Source of the DNA: Marinitoga aeolica
Lineage (GTDB): Bacteria > Thermotogota > Thermotogae > Petrotogales > Petrotogaceae
DNA length: 64,000 nucleotides
Direction: 5' to 3'
Assembly: GCF_029910535.1 (NCBI RefSeq)
Contig: NZ_CP069362.1
Coordinates: forward strand, 1,302,001 to 1,366,000
The notes under the pieces are model-generated. The model was not told the origin of the DNA. It saw only the letters and a program-made list of their open reading frames with translations, and did not search any database. Positions 294-58,021 of this stretch are shown piece by piece (positions within the stretch are counted from its first letter, which is position 1; every line of letters starts with the position of its first letter). A program made the position numbers and the translations under genes.

Positions 294-1232
294 TTAAATT
301 AACTCTTTTAATTCCTCTATATTTTTTAAATCTTCTGGTATGTTATAAAAATTATATTCGAATTTTGGATAAATTTCAGTATTCCAAAAAATTGGTTTTT
401 CCAATTCTTCTTTTAACTCTGTTTTGAAAAAATAATCAGAAATATATTCGGATAAAATATAAAAAGTATTGTCTTCATATGCAACTATATCTTCCTCAAA
501 TAATTTATTTATTCTATGAAAAATTGATTCCAAACTTTTCTCATCTAATTTATTCTTTATAGTTATCATTACAAAAATGAATTCTTCATATTTTTCAAAA
601 AAGTCTTCGAGAGATTTAAGTAAAAATGTTTTATTATATAATATACCATTTGAAATCTTTGAATTATTTAAAAGCTTCTCTTTAATTTTTAAGTTTCTCT
701 TGTCTTTTATATTTTCATATATATGTCCCATAAACTTAGCAAAAAGTTTAGCAATATTAATTATCTCACCATCGATAAATATATTTTTTTCTGAATAATT
801 GTCTATATTCAAAAATCCTACAACTTCATTTTTTACTAAAATTGGAACTGAAAGATACGATTTTAATCTTAATAAGTTTCCACCTTTTACTAATAAATCT
901 AATTGTTCTGTTGTTTCCCTTTCAATTCGAGAAGTAATAATGTGAGCTCCATGAAATTTTTCTTCAAAAATATGATTCTTTTTGAATCTAATATCTTTTA
1001 ATATATTCATATTATGACCTTTGACAGCAACATATCTAAAATATCCATCATCATCTCTTAAAATAACACTGCCTGTAGTTAATCTACTATCAAAATCCAT
1101 TATGGATATTAATATATATTCGAATATATTTTTCATATCTAAAAATTCATTATATTCTTTTTCAGAAATCATTTCAAATACTTTTGAAAAAATATTTATG
1201 AATTTTCTATTAATTATTTTAACCATCCCCAT
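294..1232 (-). CDS. GAF-domain protein, possible degenerate GGDEF-like C-terminus
   Basis: This 312-residue soluble protein has a GAF-type sensory region at about residues 30-170. The segments GSVILRDDDGYFRYVAVKGH and LKSYLSVPILVKNEVVGFLNID are typical GAF strands. Residues 200-300 (FVMITIKNK, IFHRINKLF, IVAYEDNTFYILSE) resemble the layout of a GGDEF domain but lack any GG(D/E)EF motif, so the protein is probably not a cyclase. It is monocistronic, with its own promoter and terminator. The first ATG has no good ribosome binding site, and the ATG two codons later is an alternative. The ligand is unknown. Confidence 0.7.
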   Translation of the reverse strand: MGMVKIINRKFINIFSKVFEMISEKEYNEFLDMKNIFEYILISIMDFDSRLTTGSVILRDDDGYFRYVAVKGHNMNILKDIRFKKNHIFEEKFHGAHIITSRIERETTEQLDLLVKGGNLLRLKSYLSVPILVKNEVVGFLNIDNYSEKNIFIDGEIINIAKLFAKFMGHIYENIKDKRNLKIKEKLLNNSKISNGILYNKTFLLKSLEDFFEKYEEFIFVMITIKNKLDEKSLESIFHRINKLFEEDIVAYEDNTFYILSEYISDYFFKTELKEELEKPIFWNTEIYPKFEYNFYNIPEDLKNIEELKELI

Positions 1233-1252
1233 ATAAAAATTTATTTATATTT

Positions 1253-1282
1253 ATTATATCAATAATTACATGGTTTTGTCAA
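1253..1282 (-). promoter_or_regulatory. Promoter of the GAF-domain gene
   Basis: A TTGACA -35 box (1277-1282) and a TATAAT -10 box (1253-1258) are separated by 18 bp. The transcript would have a very short leader of about 15 nt. Confidence 0.7.
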
Positions 1283-1322
1283 ATTAAAAAAATATAATTC
1301 TAATTTTTAACATAAATAACAT

Positions 1323-1342
1323 AAAACTCCCGAAGGAGTTTT
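1323..1342 (-). terminator. Terminator of the suf operon
   Basis: An 8-bp stem AAAACTCC/GGAGTTTT has a CGAA-type loop. The sufU stop codon overlaps its foot. Confidence 0.75.
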
Positions 1343-1766
1343 ATTCTTCAAGTTCTTCTATTGAATTTTCAAGCGTATGCCACGCAAGTGTAAAACATTT
1401 TACCCTAAGTGGAAACTTTGATATTTCAGAATATACAGCTACATTTCCAATTATTTCTTCATTAAATTCTTCGCCCTGAGCCATTTTTTCCACTTCTTCT
1501 AATATTTCTTCTGCTTCTTTTAATGTTTTTCCTTCAATAGCTTCACATAATAATGCCGCAGATGATTGACTTACTATACATCCATGACCACTAAATTTAG
1601 CATCTTTAATTATTCCATTTTCAACTTTTAAATAAAGAGTTATTTCATCTCCGCAGGATAGATTTTTCCCATCTTCTTTTATCGTTGCATCTGGTATTTC
1701 TCCCTGAAATTGTGGATTTCTTGCATAATCCAATATAATATCAGAATATAAATCTTCCAGGCTCAT
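1341..1766 (-). CDS. sufU: SufU-type iron-sulfur cluster assembly protein
   Basis: This 141-residue protein is the last gene of the suf operon. In the SufS/SufU systems of Gram-positive bacteria, SufU is a zinc protein that takes persulfide sulfur from SufS and passes it to SufB. The ligands are visible: C38 and D40 in LSCGDE, C63 in GHGC and C124 in RVKC. Its start codon overlaps the sufS stop (ATGA), which indicates translational coupling, and GGGAGTGG provides the ribosome binding site. Distinguishing SufU from IscU rests on the suf context. Confidence 0.93.
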   Translation of the reverse strand: MSLEDLYSDIILDYARNPQFQGEIPDATIKEDGKNLSCGDEITLYLKVENGIIKDAKFSGHGCIVSQSSAALLCEAIEGKTLKEAEEILEEVEKMAQGEEFNEEIIGNVAVYSEISKFPLRVKCFTLAWHTLENSIEELEE

Positions 1767-2974
1767 TTAAACCACTCCCTGATATATTTTAAGCCTTCAA
1801 TTAATTGATCGACTTCTTCCTCTGTATTGTAAAAATAAAAACTGGCTCTACAAACAGATTTTGTTCCCATTTGTTTTAAAAGAGGTTGAGCGCATAAGTG
1901 TCCGCTTCTAACAGCTACACCGAATTTATCACTTAAAACCTGTGCAACATCATGTGGATGAACGCTATCAATATTAAATGTAATTATTGAAACTCTATCT
2001 TCTAATCCATATAATTTTATAAAATCTAATTCTTTTATTTTTTCTATTGCGTATTTTGTCAATATTTCAGAATGCTTTTTTATATTTTCCATTCCGATTT
2101 TATTTAAATAATCAATTGCTGCTTTTAATCCAATTGCTCCGCCAACATTAGGTGTTCCTGCTTGAAATTTTTCTGGCAATTCGGCAAAATCTGTTTGTTC
2201 AATACTTACCCAATTTATCATTTCTCCGCCATAATGGAAAGGAGGTAATTTTTTTAATAATTTTTTCTTTCCATAAAAAACACCAATTCCCATAGGACCA
2301 AGCATTTTATGTCCGGAAAAAGAAAGAAAATCAACATCTAAATCTTTTACATCTATTCCAAAATGAGGAACTAATTGAGCACCATCAACATGAACGAGTA
2401 TCTCTTTCTCATGTGCATAATTTATTATTTCTTTTATTGGTATAACCTGTCCAGTAACGTTTGACATTCCAGTTATACTTATTAATTTAGTGTTTTCTGT
2501 TATATTAGATATAAATTCATCTAAATTAAAAATTCCATTTTCTGGATTGTAGTATTTTACAGTAAAATCAAAAGTTTTAGACAATTGTTGCCATGGAACA
2601 AAATTAGAATGATGTTCTATTGATGTAATTAAAACTTCTTTGTTTTTTAGCCATCCGCTTTTTCCTATTGAATATGCAAATAGATTAATAGATTCTGTTG
2701 TGCCTCTTGTGAAAATTATCTCTTGTGTTTTAGCGTTAATAAACTTAGCTACAGTTTTTCTTGCATTTTCATACATTTCTGTTGCTTCGTTAGAAAGCAA
2801 ATGTGCACCGCGATGCACATTTGCATTATGATAATCATAAAAATCTTTAATAGCATTGGTTACATTAACTGGAGTTAATGTAGTTGCAGCATTATCAAAA
2901 TATACTAATTTTTTTCCATTTATTTGTCTATTAAGAATCGGAAAACTCTCTATCAAATCTTTTTTGTATAACAT
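1763..2974 (-). CDS. sufS: SufS-type cysteine desulfurase (class V aminotransferase fold)
   Basis: This 403-residue PLP enzyme releases sulfur from cysteine as an enzyme-bound persulfide. The PLP lysine is K223 in SFSGHKMLGP, H121 lies in SIEHHSN, and the persulfide-forming cysteine is C361 in VRSGHLCAQP, the type II pattern. The start MLYKKDLIESFPILN matches the family's usual N-terminus. It overlaps the end of sufD by 44 bp, so the two are likely coupled. Confidence 0.95.
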   Translation of the reverse strand: MLYKKDLIESFPILNRQINGKKLVYFDNAATTLTPVNVTNAIKDFYDYHNANVHRGAHLLSNEATEMYENARKTVAKFINAKTQEIIFTRGTTESINLFAYSIGKSGWLKNKEVLITSIEHHSNFVPWQQLSKTFDFTVKYYNPENGIFNLDEFISNITENTKLISITGMSNVTGQVIPIKEIINYAHEKEILVHVDGAQLVPHFGIDVKDLDVDFLSFSGHKMLGPMGIGVFYGKKKLLKKLPPFHYGGEMINWVSIEQTDFAELPEKFQAGTPNVGGAIGLKAAIDYLNKIGMENIKKHSEILTKYAIEKIKELDFIKLYGLEDRVSIITFNIDSVHPHDVAQVLSDKFGVAVRSGHLCAQPLLKQMGTKSVCRASFYFYNTEEEVDQLIEGLKYIREWFK

Positions 2975-4157
2975 CTCTTAATTCCCCCGCTAATTTAGTA
3001 TTGTATTTGCTTATAAACTCAATAGATGGTTCAAAAATACCAGCTGCAATTTCCTTTTTCGCTTCATTCTTACTGTATCCTCTTGTCATCATATAATACA
3101 ATTGATCTTCTTCAATACTTCCAATACTTGCAGCATGACCAGCAGTAACATCATTTTCATCAACGTATAATGAAGGATAAGCCATTACTCTTGCTTTTTC
3201 TGAAAGTATAAGATTGAAATCTTGCTCACCAGCATCAGCTTCTTTTGCACCTTTTTTGATATCAAGATTACCTCTAAATACAACTCTTGAAGAATCCATT
3301 AATACCCCATGACCTAAAATGTGACCAAATGTTTCTGGAGCATAATATCTTATTAAATAAAACATATCTATAATTTCTTCATCTTGAGTTAAATAGTATG
3401 GATATATGTTTACATTTCCTTTTTTTGCAGCCATTCTAACAACAATATGAGGAGCTGTAACTTTTCCACCTATATTAATATCATATATTGTTAATTTGGC
3501 ATTTTCACCAATATCAAAGAATATATTGTCTGTAGATATATCATTTTCAAATAAATTCAAGTTAATTAAAGTTAATTCAGAATTTTCATTTAGTTTTCCC
3601 CTTAAAGAGGATATTTTTGAACTATTTCCATTTGATTTTACAAATCTGATTAATGTAGCTTTACTATTTTCTGCTAAGTTTATTATTCCTAAATCGTATA
3701 AAGGATTTTTATTGTCGATTATTGATTCAGTTGTATAAACATCATTTTTTTGATTTTTTTCTGTTTTTAAGTAGAATCCATTATTGAAAAATATATCAGA
3801 CATCAATAAAAATTTTCTATGAGAACCATCAAAATCCATATCATTTAATATTTCAATACCTTCATCATCAAGATCATTTAAACTTTTAAGATTCTCTGAA
3901 GTTAGAGTGTTGAATTTAGAAATGAATGGAAGTGGATCAAAGCCGTTTAATCTCGATCTTTTCCATTTTGGAAATCCTAATTTTTTATATTCTTCATATC
4001 TATTTAATCTAAATTCGTTTAGTTTATTATTTGTAAAAATTTTTTTTGATTCATCTATTTCAATTATACCATAATCTTTATCAGATTCTATCTCTGGCAC
4101 TGTCCATTCTGTTGCAAAAAAATCATCATGCCTCAAAATAAGCGCTTTTTCATACAT
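2931..4157 (-). CDS. sufD: Fe-S cluster scaffold protein SufD
   Basis: This 408-residue protein is the partner of SufB in the SufBC2D scaffold. The C-terminal SufBD core is clear: GHGVLMDSSRVVFRGNLDIK, then AGEQDFNLILSEKARV, then AGHAASIGSIEEDQLYYMMT with the conserved histidine. The N-terminal part is poorly conserved, as usual. It lies 41 bp downstream of sufB with a clear GGAGGTG ribosome binding site. Confidence 0.92.
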   Translation of the reverse strand: MYEKALILRHDDFFATEWTVPEIESDKDYGIIEIDESKKIFTNNKLNEFRLNRYEEYKKLGFPKWKRSRLNGFDPLPFISKFNTLTSENLKSLNDLDDEGIEILNDMDFDGSHRKFLLMSDIFFNNGFYLKTEKNQKNDVYTTESIIDNKNPLYDLGIINLAENSKATLIRFVKSNGNSSKISSLRGKLNENSELTLINLNLFENDISTDNIFFDIGENAKLTIYDINIGGKVTAPHIVVRMAAKKGNVNIYPYYLTQDEEIIDMFYLIRYYAPETFGHILGHGVLMDSSRVVFRGNLDIKKGAKEADAGEQDFNLILSEKARVMAYPSLYVDENDVTAGHAASIGSIEEDQLYYMMTRGYSKNEAKKEIAAGIFEPSIEFISKYNTKLAGELRDVIQKRFDREFSDS

Positions 4158-4198
4158 AAATACACCTCCGGTGATAAAAATTTATAAAAATCATTTAA

Positions 4199-5614
4199 TT
4201 ATCCAATAGAAGATTCCACTTCTAAATTAATCAACTTATTCAATTCAAGAGCATATTCTAAAGGCAATTCCTTTACTAGTGGTTCAATAAATCCTCTAAC
4301 AATCATGTTTTTAGCATCTATTTCTGATAGCCCTCTTGACATTAAATAATATATTTGTTCTTCAGAAATTCTTCCTATTTTAGCTTCATGCCCAACATCT
4401 GCATCGTCAGTAAATACTTCTATTAATGGAACTGTATCACTCTTTGATTTGTTATCAAGCATTAAAGCATTACATTCTACAGAAGATTTAGCGCCTTTTG
4501 CATTTTCTCCAATTTTTACCCAACCTCTGTAAAATGCCCAACCGCCACCAATACTGATACTTCTTGCATTTACAATAGAACTTGTATAAGGAGCTAAATG
4601 AAATACTTTAGAACCTGTATCAAGATGTTGATTTGGCCCAGCATATGTTAAGGTAACGGAACTATTCTTAGCACCTTTTCCTCTTAAAATAGTCATTGGA
4701 TATAACATAGTTTTAAAACTACCTAATGAGCCAGATACCCATTCCATAGAACCATCCTCATCTACAATAGCTCTTTTGGTATTTAAATTATATGTATTTT
4801 TACTCCAGTTTTGAATTGTAGAATATTTCATCTTAGCCCCTTTTTTTACATATATTTCAACCATACCAGCGTGCAAATTGGTTACATTATAAAACGGAGC
4901 AGAACATCCCTCAATGAATTCAACTTCTGATCCTTCATCAGCAATAATTAATGTGTGTTCTAATTGACTCATCCCTGGGTTATTCATTCTGAAGTAAGCT
5001 TGTAAAGGTAAAGGGACTTTTACGCCTTTTGGAACGTATAAGAATGAACCTCCGCTCCATAATGCTCCATGTAAAGCAGCATATCTATGATTATGTGAAG
5101 GAACTAATTTCATAAAATATTCCTTTACTAAATCAGGATATTCTTTAACAGCAGTTTCCATATCTAAAAATACAATGCCTAAATCATTTAATTCTTTTTG
5201 TATGTGCTGATATACAACTTCTGAATCATATTGTGCGCCAACTCCTGCTAATGCTTTTCTTTCTGCTTCTGGAATTCCTAATTTTTCAAAAGTATCCTTA
5301 ATTTCTTCAGGTACATCTTCCCATGAATTAGATTTTTTTGCATCTGGTTTCATATATGCAACTATTTTACTTAAATCTAACTTTCTTATATCAACACCAA
5401 AATGAGGTTCATGATAATTCTCAAATATTTTAAATGCTTGTAATCTATGCTCCAACATCCATTTGGGTTCATTTTTAGCTTCAGATATTTCCCTTATAAC
5501 CTTTTCATTTAATCCGGGAGGAGTTTTATATGCATATTTAGCTTCATTTCTGAAGTCGAATTTTGACTGATTTATCATCAAATCTTCATAATTTATTTCA
5601 TTAACATCTTTCAT
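4199..5614 (-). CDS. sufB: Fe-S cluster scaffold protein SufB
   Basis: This 471-residue central scaffold subunit is where the Fe-S cluster is built from sulfide, iron and electrons. The conserved cysteine in FIEGCSAPFYNV and the later one in SVECNALMLD fit the known sulfur-transfer pair. GHEAKIGRISEEQIYYLMSR is the typical C-terminal motif. I chose the ATG at 5614 (MKDVNEINYE) because AAGGAGTGG sits 5-10 nt upstream. An upstream in-frame start at 5653 would lie inside sufC and has no ribosome binding site. Confidence 0.95.
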   Translation of the reverse strand: MKDVNEINYEDLMINQSKFDFRNEAKYAYKTPPGLNEKVIREISEAKNEPKWMLEHRLQAFKIFENYHEPHFGVDIRKLDLSKIVAYMKPDAKKSNSWEDVPEEIKDTFEKLGIPEAERKALAGVGAQYDSEVVYQHIQKELNDLGIVFLDMETAVKEYPDLVKEYFMKLVPSHNHRYAALHGALWSGGSFLYVPKGVKVPLPLQAYFRMNNPGMSQLEHTLIIADEGSEVEFIEGCSAPFYNVTNLHAGMVEIYVKKGAKMKYSTIQNWSKNTYNLNTKRAIVDEDGSMEWVSGSLGSFKTMLYPMTILRGKGAKNSSVTLTYAGPNQHLDTGSKVFHLAPYTSSIVNARSISIGGGWAFYRGWVKIGENAKGAKSSVECNALMLDNKSKSDTVPLIEVFTDDADVGHEAKIGRISEEQIYYLMSRGLSEIDAKNMIVRGFIEPLVKELPLEYALELNKLINLEVESSIG

Positions 5615-6527: not shown

Positions 6528-6760
6528 CAGACTGTTGACAAAATAAAATATGAAAAAATAATATGAGAGAATCCTTGGAAATTCCCGAAAAAATGTGAAT
6601 GGAGCCTGGCAATTTTGCATGGATGCAAAATTGAGCGAAACCGAACATGGATGTGAGTTTGAGCGCCAGGCAAGAATGAGCATTTTTGAGGAATAAGAAT
6701 TTTCACTGGATGAGCGAATATTATTTTGAATATTTTATTTTGCACTTTGCCTACAAATTG
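6528..6760 (-). mobile_element. Family-1 terminator element, copy 1
   Basis: This 233-bp element has imperfect terminal inverted repeats (CAATTTGTAGGCAAAGTG at its left end, CAGACTGTTGACAAA at the other) and long complementary arms. The core has a GCCTGGC/GCCAGGC closing stem and a 9-bp hairpin (AATTTTGCA, loop TCCA, TGCAAAATT). It lies between two copies of a terminator hairpin, 22 bp each with one mismatch. Oriented with the upstream minus-strand gene, it is about 96% identical to copy 2 by eye. It fills most of the 395-bp gap between the genes. Confidence 0.88.
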
Positions 6761-11617: not shown

Positions 11618-12823
11618 GTGATGCTTTTTGTTTTTTATTTCTTACATCTTTTAGCTTATTGGTATTTAATACCAATAAGTTTTGTTTTTTTGTATTTTAT
11701 CGTATATATATTTATAGAAAAAAGAATCAGGAGAATATTACATAAAGGTAATGCTTATACTACCAAACATTATAATCTGGAATATTCTGGTTTATTACGA
11801 GAATTGGATGAAATGATCAGAACATATTCATTATTATTATTAAGAGAGAGAGAAGGATTAAAAGAATATTATGAGAAATTTAATGCCATTTTTGATAGCA
11901 TAGGTTCAGGATTATTGGTTTTTAATGAAAATAATATTTTACAAAGATCCAATCATAAAGCTAAAGAAATTTTTCATAACATTACGCTGAAATATGGAAT
12001 GCAACTTTCAAAAATATTTATTAAAAGTGGAATAAAAATCACATTAGAATCTGGTATATATGAAGTATATTCTAAAAAATTAAGGAAAAATTTGCAATTG
12101 ATTATAAGTAAAAAAAGCAATTTTATAATTATAGCTGTAAATGATATTACTACATATAAAAAATTAAAAAAGAATCTTGAAAATGCCAGACATTTTGCAA
12201 GGCTTGGAGAAATACTTGCCAACGCTGCTCATGGTTTAAAAACACCTATAGCAAGGTTAAAAATGACGTTCCAAATGTATGAGCTTACAAATGATAAAAA
12301 CTATTTAAATCAAGTAAAAAATGAAATTGACAATATTCAAAACATAGTTCAGGAAACGCTAGAATTATTTAAAATACCAGAAGATATTAAATTGTTTAGT
12401 TTAAATCTGGTAATAAATGATGTGATAAATAATTTTAAAAAGGTATATCCTCAGATTAAATTTATTGTACAGGATATGGTAAATGTTGAAATCAAAAGTG
12501 ATGAATGGCTTTTTAAATCGGCAATGTTTAATGTGATTCAAAATTCTATAGATGCTGTTTTAATGAAAAAAGATCAAAGTATTATAATTGTAAAAATGTT
12601 GAGAAAAAAGGGATGTTATAAAATTATGTTAGCAGATAATGGAATAGGAATGGATAAAACCGAGAAGGAAAAATATTTGAAACCATTTTTTACTACAAAG
12701 GATAATGGTACGGGGCTTGGTACTGTTTTCTTAGAAAGATTTGTTATTTTTCAAAATGCGAGATTGCGGGTTAATTCAATAAAAGGCAAGGGGACAATAA
12801 TAAGTATAATTTTAGAAAAATAG
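11618..12823 (+). CDS. Membrane-bound sensor histidine kinase
   Basis: This protein of about 401 residues has two N-terminal membrane helices (residues 1-40), a PAS-like region (FDSIGSGLLVFNENNIL, near 92), a HisKA-type helix and a HATPase domain (N-box NVIQNSIDAV; DNGIGMD; GTGLGT). The phospho-histidine region reads AAHGLKTPIARL near residue 204, so the acidic residue normally following the histidine is a glycine. The start is uncertain. GTG 11618 has no ribosome binding site, and the frame stays open upstream into the preceding gene. No response regulator is adjacent. Its TAG stop lies inside the terminator hairpin. Confidence 0.85.
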   Translation: MMLFVFYFLHLLAYWYLIPISFVFLYFIVYIFIEKRIRRILHKGNAYTTKHYNLEYSGLLRELDEMIRTYSLLLLREREGLKEYYEKFNAIFDSIGSGLLVFNENNILQRSNHKAKEIFHNITLKYGMQLSKIFIKSGIKITLESGIYEVYSKKLRKNLQLIISKKSNFIIIAVNDITTYKKLKKNLENARHFARLGEILANAAHGLKTPIARLKMTFQMYELTNDKNYLNQVKNEIDNIQNIVQETLELFKIPEDIKLFSLNLVINDVINNFKKVYPQIKFIVQDMVNVEIKSDEWLFKSAMFNVIQNSIDAVLMKKDQSIIIVKMLRKKGCYKIMLADNGIGMDKTEKEKYLKPFFTTKDNGTGLGTVFLERFVIFQNARLRVNSIKGKGTIISIILEK

Positions 12824-12842
12824 TGAACTTATGTTCACTATT
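12819..12842 (+). terminator. Proximal copy of duplicated terminator hairpin
   Basis: A 10-bp stem (AATAGTGAAC/GTTCACTATT) contains the kinase stop codon. It has no U-tract because the element starts directly after it. It is identical over 24 bp to 13076-13099. Confidence 0.8.
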
Positions 12843-13075
12843 CAGTTTGTAGACAAAGTGCAAAATAAAATATTCAAAATAATATTCGTTCATCCGGTGA
12901 AAATTCTTATTCCTCAAAAATGCTCATTCTTGCCTGTCGCTCAAACTCACATCCGTGTTCGGTTTCGCTCAATTTTGCATCCATGCAAAATTGTCAGGCT
13001 CCATTCACATTTTTTCGGGAAATTTCAAGGATTCTCTCATATTATTTTTTCATATTTTATTTTGTCAACAGTCTG
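12843..13075 (+). mobile_element. Family-1 terminator element, copy 2 (type copy)
   Basis: This 233-bp element runs from CAGTTTGTAGACAAAG to CTTGTTGTC-like complement CAACAGTCTG. It is flanked by a perfect 24-bp direct duplication of a terminator hairpin. The arms pair over most of their length. The core carries a GCCTGTC/GTCAGGC closing stem with one mismatch, a small ACA-TCCG-TGT hairpin and the 9-bp AATTTTGCA hairpin with TCCA loop. It is oriented with the upstream kinase gene. No transposase is encoded. Confidence 0.9.
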
Positions 13076-13099
13076 AATAGTGAACTTATGTTCACTATT
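13076..13099 (+). terminator. Distal copy of duplicated terminator hairpin (with U-tract)
   Basis: This is identical to 12819-12842 but followed by TTTGTTTT, so it is the functional terminator of the pair. Confidence 0.85.
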
Positions 13100-20247: not shown

Positions 20248-20444
20248 AAGAAAATTATAAAATAATGCTCTTCACCAGGTGAAAATTCTGAGTCCTCGAA
20301 AATTCTCATTCTCGCAGGTCGTATCAGACTCACATCCGTGTTCGGCTTCACTCAATTTTGCATCCGTGCAAAATTGACCTGCTCCATTCGAATTTTTTCG
20401 GGAATTTTCAATGGTTCATCACATTATTTTTATAAATTTTCTTA
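20248..20444 (+). repeat. Divergent structured repeat (family-3) related to the terminator elements
   Basis: This element of about 197 bp has terminal inverted repeats AAGAAAATTATAAAATAATG and CATTATTTTTATAAATTTTC. The core has the shared architecture but a different closing stem, GCAGGTC/GACCTGC, around ACA-TCCG-TGT and AATTTTGCA-TCCG-TGCAAAATT hairpins. No flanking duplicated terminator is present. It begins four bases after the upstream stop codon and may itself end that transcript. Confidence 0.7.
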
Positions 20445-23997: not shown

Positions 23998-24236
23998 CAG
24001 ACTGTTGACAAAGTATTTTCTAAAAAAATAATATGAACGAATACTTGAAAATTCCCGAAAAAATATGAATGAAGGCGGATAAAATCACATGGATGTGATT
24101 TTAAGCGAAACCAATCAGGATGTGCGTTTGAGCGACCGCCGGGAATGAATATTTTTGAGGATTTAGAATTTTCCGTATGAGTGAATATTATTTTTGAAAA
24201 TACTTTGTATTTAATTATAAAGTTTGTCTACAAACT
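23998..24236 (-). mobile_element. Family-1 terminator element, copy 4 (subfamily b)
   Basis: This element of about 239 bp is flanked by a perfect 19-bp duplication of a terminator hairpin. It is about 97% identical by eye to copy 10 (57783-58021) and clearly different from copies 1 and 2. Its closing stem is GGCGG/CCGCC and its main hairpin AAAATCACA-TCCA-TGTGATTTT. It is oriented with the upstream minus-strand gene. It occupies most of the gap between the genes. Confidence 0.88.
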
Positions 24237-24240
24237 AAAA

Positions 24241-46230: not shown

Positions 46231-46295
46231 TAATAAAATAATCAAAATAATATTCGCTCATATTGTTTTTTCATATTTTATTTTGTCAACAGTCT
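46231..46295 (+). repeat. Internally deleted family-1 element remnant (copy 5)
   Basis: The sequence joins a left-arm piece (AATAAAATAATCAAAATAAT, ATTCGCTCAT) directly to the right end (TTTTTTCATATTTTATTTTG, TCAACAGTCT). The core and the outermost left end are gone. An intact terminator follows directly, as in the complete copies. Confidence 0.75.
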
Positions 46296-46297
46296 AT

Positions 46298-46336
46298 AAT
46301 AAAATCAGGAAGCTTTTTAAGCTTCCTGATTTTATT
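46298..46336. terminator. Bidirectional terminator after the element remnant
   Basis: A 16-bp perfect stem (AATAAAATCAGGAAGC and its complement) separates the convergent kinase and radical SAM genes. Its position next to the element end matches the distal hairpin of intact copies. Confidence 0.85.
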
Positions 46337-48633: not shown

Positions 48634-48735
48634 ATTCAGACGCTTGATTGTTTTTCTGAGTTCGATTTCACTCAATTTTGCATCCGTACAAAATTGACCG
48701 GTTCCATATGTTATTTTTTTATCGATAATCTGAAT
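48634..48735 (+). repeat. Short structured repeat related to family 2 (copy 6)
   Basis: This 102-bp element is bounded by ATTCAG/CTGAAT inverted ends. It has the shared core segment TTCACTCAATTTTGCATCCG and a partly paired AATTTTG(C/T) hairpin. It lies just upstream of the riboswitch promoter. It is shorter and more decayed than the other copies. Confidence 0.6.
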
Positions 48736-48774: not shown

Positions 48775-48784
48775 TATTTTGTAG

Positions 48785-48881
48785 AACCGCCGGGGGAGCT
48801 CCTAGGCCGGAGCTGAGATTAAGGTGGAAGCCTTAGACCCCAGCACCTGATCCGGGTAATACCGGCGTAGGGAGAGCGGAG
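48785..48881 (+). ncRNA. TPP riboswitch (thi box)
   Basis: The leader has the conserved GGAGCTGAGATTAAGG and CACCTGATCCGGGTAATACC, then GGCGTAGGGA, the pyrimidine- and pyrophosphate-binding elements of TPP riboswitches. CCGC (48787) and GCGG (48876) close the P1 helix. It precedes a terminator and a thiamine-binding protein gene. TPP binding would favour termination. Confidence 0.95.
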
Positions 48882-48900
48882 TTAACAATAGATAAATTAA

Positions 48901-49967: not shown

Positions 49968-50280
49968 CAGTTTGTAGGCAAAGTTTAAAATAAAATAATT
50001 GAAATTGGAATCAAAATAAAACTCATTCAAACGCTTGATTGCTAATCTGAAAAAATTAATCATTCCCGGTTTCCGTTCAGACTCGCATCCATGCTCGGCT
50101 TCACTCAAAATCACATCCATGTGATTTTGGAAACCTCCATTCATAATTTTTTCAGGCAATCTTCGAGTTTTCATTCATTTTATTTTTGAATCCCAATATA
50201 TTCAACTTCTTTTATATTCTTCCGGAAAATTTCATATATCTATATATTATTTTTTCATATTTTATTTTGTCAACAATTTG
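49968..50280 (+). mobile_element. Family-1 element, copy 7, with its core replaced by a family-2 element
   Basis: The left end (CAGTTTGTAGGCAAAGTT) and right end (TTTTATTTTGTCAACAATTT) are of family 1. The core has been replaced by a family-2 element at 50005-50195. The composite is flanked by duplicated terminator hairpins and oriented with the upstream thiamine-binding gene. Confidence 0.85.
50005..50195 (+). mobile_element. Family-2 structured element (nested)
   Basis: This 191-bp element has terminal inverted repeats TTGGAATCAAAATAAAA and its counterpart TTTTATTTTTGAATCCCAA. The core has a perfect GGTTTCC/GGAAACC closing stem, a GCA-TCCA-TGC hairpin and an AAAATCACA-TCCA-TGTGATTTT hairpin. 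It lies inside family-1 copy 7. The copy at 54231 is about 95% identical by eye. Confidence 0.85.
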
Positions 50281-53393: not shown

Positions 53394-53399
53394 GAACAT

Positions 53400-53632
53400 C
53401 AGTTTGTAGACAAAGTGCAAAATAAAATAATCAAAACAATATTCGCTCATCTAGTGAAAATTCTTATTCCTCAAAAATGCTCATTCTCGCCTGGCGCTCA
53501 AACTCGCATCCGTGCTCGGTTTCGCTCAATTTTGCATCCATGCGAAATTGTCAGGCTCCATTCGCATTTTTTCGGGAATTTTCAAAGATTCACTCATATT
53601 ATTTTTTAATATTTTATTTTGACAATAATTTA
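53400..53632 (+). mobile_element. Family-1 terminator element, copy 8
   Basis: This element of about 233 bp has an intact left end (CAGTTTGTAGACAAAGTG) and a decayed right end (GACAATAATTT). The core has GCCTGGC/GTCAGGC and a GCA-TCCG-TGC small hairpin, a compensated version of ACA-TGT in copies 1 and 2. No duplicated hairpin flanks it. It is oriented with the upstream kinase gene. Confidence 0.82.
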
Positions 53633-54139: not shown

Positions 54140-54155
54140 GTGCCGAAAGGCACTT
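54138..54155 (+). terminator. Proximal copy of duplicated terminator hairpin
   Basis: The AAGTGCC/GGCACTT stem is followed by TTTTT. It is part of a perfect 30-bp duplication (54138-54167 and 54506-54535) that includes the U-tract and TTGACA. Confidence 0.85.
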
Positions 54156-54160
54156 TTTTT

Positions 54161-54505
54161 GTTGACAAAGTACAAAATAAAATAATCAAAATAATATTTG
54201 CTCATCCAGTGAAAATTCTAATCATCAAAATTGGAATCAAAATAAAACTCATTCAAACGCTTGATTGCTAATCTGAAAAAATTACTCATTCTCGGTTTCC
54301 GTTCAGACTCGCATCCATGCTCGGCTTCACTCAAAATCACATCCATATGATTTTGGAAACATCCATTCATAATTTTTTCAGGCAATCTTCGAGTTTTCAT
54401 TCGTTTTATTTTTGAATTCCAATAATATATTTGATTTAATTAGAGGAGGAATTTTCAAGGATTCACTCATATTATTTTTTCATATTTTATTTTGTCAACA
54501 GTCTG
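54161..54505 (+). mobile_element. Family-1 element, copy 9, with family-2 core
   Basis: The family-1 left arm (GTTGACAAAGTACAAAAT, to about 54230) and right arm (GGAATTTTCAAGGATTCACT onward, 54449-54505) enclose a family-2 element. The outer CAG of the left end is replaced by the target sequence. It is flanked by a 30-bp perfect duplication and oriented with padR. Confidence 0.85.
54231..54422 (+). mobile_element. Family-2 structured element (nested, second copy)
   Basis: This 192-bp element has the ends TTGGAATCAAAA and TTTTTGAATTCCAA. The core is nearly identical to 50005-50195, with one mismatch in the closing stem. It sits at a different point of the family-1 arm than the first nested copy. 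Confidence 0.85.
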
Positions 54506-57782: not shown

Positions 57783-58021
57783 CAGTTTGTAGACAAACTC
57801 AAAATTAAATACAAAGTATTTTCAAAAATAATATTCACTCATACGGAAAATTCTAAATCCTCAAAAATATTCATTCCCGGCGGGCGCTCAAACGCACATC
57901 CTGATTGGTTTCGCTTAAAATCACATCCATGTGATTTTATCCGCCTTCATTCATATTTTTTCGGGAATTTTCAAGTATTCGTTCATATTATTTTTTTAGA
58001 AAACACTTTGTCAACAGTCTG
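57783..58021 (+). mobile_element. Family-1 terminator element, copy 10 (subfamily b)
   Basis: This 239-bp element runs from CAGTTTGTAGACAAACTC to TTTGTCAACAGTCTG. It splits the shared terminator of two convergent genes, each of which keeps a full copy of the 23-bp palindrome. Its GGCGG/CCGCC stem and AAAATCACA hairpin match copy 4. It fills most of the gap between the genes. Confidence 0.9.

Follow-up and report, generated by a model that had tools for sequence, protein, structure and literature searches.

A TwoAYGGAY (RF01731) core in Marinitoga aeolica is cargo of small transposons at transcription terminators and a candidate CsrA-binding RNA

In a 64,000-nucleotide stretch of the Marinitoga aeolica genome (hereafter the window; GCF_029910535.1, contig NZ_CP069362.1, positions 1,302,001 to 1,366,000), the segment 12931-13007 folds in the same way as several other copies that spell the fold with different bases, which raises the question of what this structure is, on which strand and as which molecule it acts, and what maintains it. 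We found that this covarying core is the interior of a 233-bp mobile element (12843-13075) and that the fold belongs to the minus strand. The unit lies between a gene that we take, from its sequence, to be sensor-kinase-like and a gene on the other side that is presumably rimO-like. In the explanation that we develop here, to which we give about an even chance of being right, the core is a minus-strand TwoAYGGAY RNA that travels as the cargo of small non-autonomous transposons, and its loops would bind CsrA as dispersed sponge or landing sites.

For the covariation analysis, copies from five Marinitoga genomes were collected by profile (84 hits at E≤1), and the 77 with E<1e-6 were aligned with MAFFT by sequence only. 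Removal of duplicates and three fragments (L044_1555, window_48707, L027_213) left 70 rows for a tree-aware test, and a 67-row alignment also left out three copies with differing outer arms (L077_1616, L091_1515, L070_1957). The structure used for counting, 30 pairs, was read off the sequences themselves and Rfam's drawing of the family. In the 67 distinct copies, standard pairs filled 96.0% of the 2010 cells, against 31.5-48.6% when the pairing was slid by 1-3 columns. Changes on both sides were seen in 21 of the 30 pairs, the cells with such changes numbered 410 against 120 ± 13 in shuffles, and the covariation score was 0.532, compared with 0.182 ± 0.008 in 500 shuffles and 0.039-0.124 after sliding; the count of further pair types was not above that of shuffles (370 of 500 reached it). 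The closing stem changed on both sides in all six pairs and the main hairpin in six of nine, and an outward arm of eight pairs, five with both-side changes, extends the structure. Because related copies inflate simple pair counts, we added a G-test in the style of R-scape, the check proposed in the initial annotation, with average-product correction on the 70 distinct rows and 60 null alignments in which the parsimony changes of each column were moved onto random branches. Four pairs scored above every null (two in the closing stem, one in the outer stem and one in hairpin 2), and three further structure pairs lay at E 0.017-0.083, with ties at E 0.083 that include non-pairing columns. In the main hairpin, pairs whose only difference separates two clades gave E≥0.08, tied with non-structural pairs, and therefore carry no independent weight. 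These results support a structure under selection, as had been proposed from paired changes around fixed loops, and the stem variants named in that proposal are present in the sequence.

Overall, the stems form a long rod, and both hairpins that it carries retain GGA in the loop; on the minus strand, hairpin 1 of the studied copy reads AATTTTGCATGGATGCAAAATT and the upper part of hairpin 2 reads ACACGGATGT. Besides the strand and the outward arm, two details of the initial annotation needed revision, and its most visible example, the switch of the main hairpin between AATTTTGCA and AAAATCACA, preserves pairing, with 99.5% of hairpin cells paired, but is statistically among the weaker ones. The segment described as conserved between the hairpins is actually one side of the lower stem of hairpin 2; its partner is GAGTTTGAGC, and the pairing spans two tandem G.A motifs, which are GA/GA in 61/67 copies for the outer motif and in 50/67 for the other. 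A main loop that is always TCCA or TCCG describes the window correctly, but outside it the loop is CAGGATG in 10 of the 67 copies, CAGGACG in one and CAGGGATG in one.

The search of Rfam and of other Thermotogota suggested at the outset gave an identity. The minus strand at 12894-13041 matches TwoAYGGAY (RF01731, clan CL00106 in Rfam) with 41.2 bits and E 0.0037, just below the 43-bit cut-off, and two sister copies in the window exceed it, at 6562-6709 (45.6 bits) and 50022-50177 (44.2 bits). The architecture is of the TwoAYGGAY type, with two hairpins bearing AYGGAY-type loops on one closing stem (CAYGGATG on both in the studied core; CAGGATG instead in some copies), so that the fold at 12931-13007 is an already known RNA family and not a new one. 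The 2.44-Mb window genome holds 24 RF01731 matches at E≤0.001, at least 11 of them over the cut-off among the matches listed. Within the 41 genomes searched, the family occurred in five, all Marinitoga (5/7 of its genomes), and covariance-model search found no match in the other two, G001 and G006. This absence, and the many copies that are decayed or nested, could fit a relic in which pairing inherited from an old RNA is now kept by MITE amplification alone, with no present function. We consider that very improbable, as compensatory changes exceed the tree-aware null and the loops hold while the stems change.

The studied copy belongs to a group of units with IS1182-type ends. Its two ends are CAGACTGTTGACAAA and TTTGTCTACAAACTG with 0 mismatches; in RNA orientation the 5' TIR, CAGACTGTTGACAAA, occupies 13061-13075 (minus), and the 3' TIR, at 12843-12860, reads inward as CAGTTTGTAGACAAAGTG on the plus strand. 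The element abuts a terminator hairpin, and this 24-bp hairpin is present in full on both sides as identical copies, at 12819-12842 and at 13076-13099, the latter followed by a T run. Sister units in the window with a duplicated hairpin are at 6528-6760 (plus; one difference between hairpins), 23998-24237 (plus; AAAATCACA type, hairpin 2 loop CAGGATG), 49968-50280 (minus; longer interior, hairpins with differences) and 57783-58021 (minus). A copy 93% identical to the studied one, with one end decayed, is at 53399-53625 (minus), and at 54155-54505 (minus) a second outer stem with the core is nested inside an IS1182-type unit, an element within an element, with the same terminator hairpin on both sides. 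The window also contains a copy of another subfamily at 20285-20411 (minus; closing stem GCAGGTC/GACCTGC), in which no IS1182-type end was found, a decayed core fragment at 48659-48707 (minus) and, at 46252-46300, a remnant consisting of one unit end beside a hairpin without the core. A TPP riboswitch (RF00059, 74.6 bits) was noted separately at 48782-48891 (plus).

The same arrangement extends through the window genome. The ends CAGACTGTTGACAAA and TTTGTCTACAAACTG recur there, with 52 and 36 sites for two end patterns that allowed 3 mismatches, and the hairpin differs from site to site. A strict hairpin-duplication rule was passed by 17 of the 37 units examined versus 0 of 1332 mismatched left/right flank pairs, and a hairpin with 7 or more pairs touched the 5' junction in 22/37 units versus 49/1000 random sites. 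Sites failing the rule include some with decayed hairpins (L066, L081, L053) and some without a recognisable duplication (L035, L049, L055). The 233-bp unit has the features of a MITE, being short, free of genes, bounded by TIRs, flanked by a target duplication and present in many copies. At the rimO locus, the element was absent from all 6 other Marinitoga genomes; G001, G003, G005 and G006 have a single hairpin at the insertion place, G004 has no clear hairpin and G002 has a different upstream neighbour. Since all six relatives lack the element there, the insertion happened within the genus. We conclude that small transposons which insert at transcription terminators carry RF01731 as mobile cargo, a finding that is new and well supported.

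Traces of a transposase were found in sister genomes. G001 has 35 end sites among the matches listed, many at contig ends beside terminator hairpins, as expected for a multi-copy IS that broke the assembly, and inside one of its TIR-type ends lies a fragment of PF13751 (DDE_Tnp_1_6; profile positions 79-125). In G005, a ribosome-binding site and then an open frame come after an end of the same type, and the first 55 residues of this frame gave no Pfam hit; we take this N-terminal piece to be IS1182-transposase-like. IS1182-family transposases are defined by DUF772 and DDE_Tnp_1_6 domains. Apart from these two pieces, no complete transposase gene was seen. A complete autonomous element was sought in the window genome and not found, with 0 PF13751 matches and all TIR pairs short among the matches listed.

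The RNA is not the only interior carried by these ends. In 10 of the 37 units a different interior, module B, lies in the same flanks (L024, L033, L040, L048, L052, L055, L057, L060, L062 and L066), and 3 of these pass the strict duplication rule; the RNA-bearing interior, module A, was assigned by a loop pattern that misses some A units (e.g. L046, L059). Since units with the same ends carry another interior, the RNA is not needed for transposition, and a role of the core as a transposition end in the window genome was rejected as the main reading, as module-B units lack the core yet have the same ends and target. Module B, bounded by CTTTCGCTTCGCGAA-type and TTAATGCTGCGCATTAA-type hairpins, replaces the core in two different outer elements and looks to us like an IS200/IS605-type derivative. 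The second outer stem likewise encloses either module: A in the window at 50 kb and 54 kb, B in L031 and L063. In the sister species G005, the same RNA is found in a second vehicle, a 189-bp unit with ends GGTGTCCAATTAGTAAAG / CTTTACTTTTTGGACA. Loci with these TGTCCAA/TTGGACA ends are L092-L095, L097 and L098 in G005 and L072 (360 bp) in G002. This vehicle makes duplications of about 12 bp (exact 12-bp at L093 and one L095 copy, similar but imperfect at the others), and no transposase family was found for it. With different ends and different duplications, different vehicles therefore carry one RNA.

Carriers are also found beyond Thermotogota. A genome-wide pattern scan returned at least 120 stretches, mostly from Pseudomonas, and an Rfam check of 18 loci among the 80 listed gave 9 with RF01731 above the cut-off. 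Of 16 genomes behind the pattern-scan loci, 10 carried RF01731 at E≤0.001, with 4 to at least 95 copies each, and in Clostridia the family was found in 36/391 genomes (at most 7 candidates scored per genome). Pseudomonas and Lachnospiraceae often have divergent core pairs in inverted-repeat units of about 0.6-1.3 kb, and some long units lie directly after terminators (L262, L263, L264, L144). Divergent TwoAYGGAY pairs were noted at L258, L260-L264 and L120 (Lachnospiraceae, Ruminiclostridium, Pseudomonas), most of them inside inverted-repeat units. At L255 (G042 C81), 1103-4282, an open frame that looks IS91-like by eye and an acetyltransferase-like frame lie between two divergent copies; a link of the IS91-like gene to the RNA was set aside as a single case.

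The divergent pairs resemble the ends of mobile units, and the whole Marinitoga unit is a long imperfect palindrome that folds well as DNA (z -7.9, minus strand), so that the fold might be a single-stranded DNA hairpin or cruciform recognised by the transposition machinery, with RNA irrelevant. We regard this as unlikely: window-genome units without the core have the same ends and can still show a duplicated terminator hairpin, vehicles that differ in their ends and in their duplications share this core, and the fit of both loops to the CsrA consensus would be left unexplained. Minimum free energy did not decide the strand or between RNA and DNA, with z -7.4 and -6.7 for the two strands folded as RNA and compared with shuffles. 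Three features favour a single-stranded form of the minus strand: the Rfam match, the conserved tandem G.A motifs and an excess of G.T over A.C cells in the stems, which is 29 to 9 with one poorly paired pair left out (10 A.C and 4 G.T in that pair alone) and 33 to 19 over all positions. We infer that the core probably acts as RNA rather than single-stranded DNA, because its loops are of the CsrA/RsmA type and it is dispensable for transposition.

How such an RNA would be transcribed was considered next to its gene context. The region contains 3 promoter-like sites against 2.5 ± 1.1 in shuffles, the best being a weak one within the 5' repeat (13041-13068, minus; TTGACA-16-AATAAT, 11/12), and none was seen by eye in the 189-bp vehicle; an own promoter as a general rule was dropped. 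Among 71 copies (77 minus six without usable gene neighbours), genes running into the copy were on the opposite strand in 45 and on the RNA strand in 29; read-through would therefore mostly yield the complement, and a 3' UTR function on the RNA strand is not supported. A structured RNA selected for some role other than CsrA binding, such as 3' UTR stability, an RNase III site or binding of a protein to the tandem G.A stems, would explain why the outer arms and G.A motifs are conserved beyond the needs of a CsrA hairpin and why copies adjoin gene ends and terminators. Yet the gene orientations show no preference for the RNA strand and the GGA loops, in the forms of CsrA sites, are among the most constant positions, and we consider this alternative doubtful.

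The loops themselves suggest CsrA as a candidate ligand. Hairpin 1 fits CANGGAYG or CAGGAYG in 66/67 copies and hairpin 2 in 64/67, and GGA is kept in 67/67 and 65/67, respectively. Loop sequences are CAYGGATG, CAAGGATG, CAGGGATG and, in a shorter form, CAGGATG, and this alternation of a hexaloop with a shorter loop involves two forms that are both CsrA site types. Described CsrA/RsmA sites include RUACARGGAUGU, CAGGA(U/A/C)G and the ANGGAN hexaloop in the consulted part of PMC7652899, and CANGGAYG with the CLIP consensus AUGGAUG in that of PMC7705225. Against this reading, hairpin 1 has at least 9 pairs and is longer than most SELEX hairpins, which mostly have four or fewer pairs (PMC7652899, in part). 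On these sequence grounds, CsrA binding by the TwoAYGGAY core is likely. TwoAYGGAY as a CsrA-binding sRNA is an idea of Gardner and Eldai (PMC4333381, the part consulted), and the pattern of fixed loops and changing stems in another phylum supports it.

CsrA is encoded in 7/7 Marinitoga genomes, including G001 and G006 without RF01731, and in 9/10 foreign RF01731 genomes (of 16 searched), the exception being a gammaproteobacterial MAG. In Clostridia, CsrA was present in 31/36 carriers versus 94/355 non-carriers (odds ratio 17, Fisher p 2e-12, relatedness ignored), leaving five carriers without a CsrA hit. Flagellin, the chosen control, was as strongly linked: it occurs in 33/36 carriers and in all 125 CsrA genomes, and CsrA and motility are therefore not separated. 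Among flagellin-positive Clostridia, carriers made up 31/125 genomes with CsrA and 2/17 without, a difference that is not decisive. The TwoAYGGAY-rich G042 (Lachnospiraceae) encodes six extra CsrA-like proteins (MLKLTVKAGEYLLVG..., L247-L252, frames of about 110-124 codons), and another carrier, G423, has two more of similar score; inspection of the regions around the G042 paralogues established no link to neighbouring RNA.

Under the TwoAYGGAY-CsrA explanation, transcription of the core would start at a promoter within the element's 5' repeat or reach it by read-through, and the two loops of one core would bind one CsrA dimer. Many dispersed copies might then form a low-level CsrA sponge or give CsrA places to land on whichever transcripts include a copy; a transposase supplied in trans would spread the cassette, and selection on CsrA binding would hold the loops fixed while the stems drift in pairs. 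In a broader version, which we offer tentatively as a possible but less than probable one, a mobile CsrA-decoy cassette would have been picked up by several unrelated vehicles in Thermotogota, Clostridia and Gammaproteobacteria, transposition would tune free CsrA/RsmA, and the window-genome vehicle would add a second terminator hairpin on landing. The cassette recurs in several mobile vehicles, and most of the bacteria concerned encode CsrA, which would also suit a selfish use in which CsrA on the element transcript regulates transposition or protects element RNA with no gain for the host. Such a use seems to us quite improbable, as the units seen encode no transposase to control and G001 has IS-like ends but no RF01731 match.

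If CsrA binds TwoAYGGAY, transposons would supply several phyla with sponges and with sites of post-transcriptional regulation, and the RNA would be, to our knowledge, the first candidate CsrA-antagonising RNA in Thermotogota. The parts of the literature since 2010 that we consulted give RF01731 no established function, and its status as mobile cargo with CsrA-like loops opens its function to direct tests and accounts for the scattered contexts in which it is found. Transposons are not mentioned in the consulted parts of the papers naming TwoAYGGAY, nothing relevant was found among the listed papers on Marinitoga repeats, and PMC4383904 names both CsrA and MITEs in unrelated sections.

Compared with known systems, the vehicle resembles IS1272 of the IS1182 family, which targets terminator stem-loops that share no sequence (PMC4923244 and PMC5678879, in the parts consulted): the units here also target stem-loops, and a partial PF13751 transposase adjoins the same ends. 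Unlike IS1272, which is described there as deleting or replacing its target hairpin with no target duplication, they have the whole hairpin duplicated, a variant drawn as a possible outcome in the model of PMC5678879 (Fig. 13, 6b). Bacterial MITEs and BOX, RUP and SPRITE repeats are described in the consulted part of PMC10969869 as short, intergenic sequences with inverted repeats and nested insertions, for which structured RNA has been proposed; the units here are likewise short, intergenic, inverted-repeat and nested, whereas their interior, unlike that of BOX/RUP/SPRITE as presented there, is a named covarying RNA family common to vehicles with different ends. Like published TwoAYGGAY, the window copies have two AYGGAY-loop hairpins in a closing stem plus an outer stem, with loops that agree with the proposed role as a CsrA-binding sRNA (PMC4333381, in part). 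The 2010 listing, in the part of PMC2864571 consulted, gives human gut, gammaproteobacteria and Clostridiales, and the present case differs from it in its Thermotogota genus, high copy number and mobile-element cargo. CsrB, with its CAGGA(U/A/C)G repeats (PMC7652899, in part), and RsmZ-type sponge RNAs share with TwoAYGGAY copies the GGA in hairpin loops; those RNAs gather many sites in one sRNA, while each TwoAYGGAY copy offers two putative sites and the copies are scattered across many loci.
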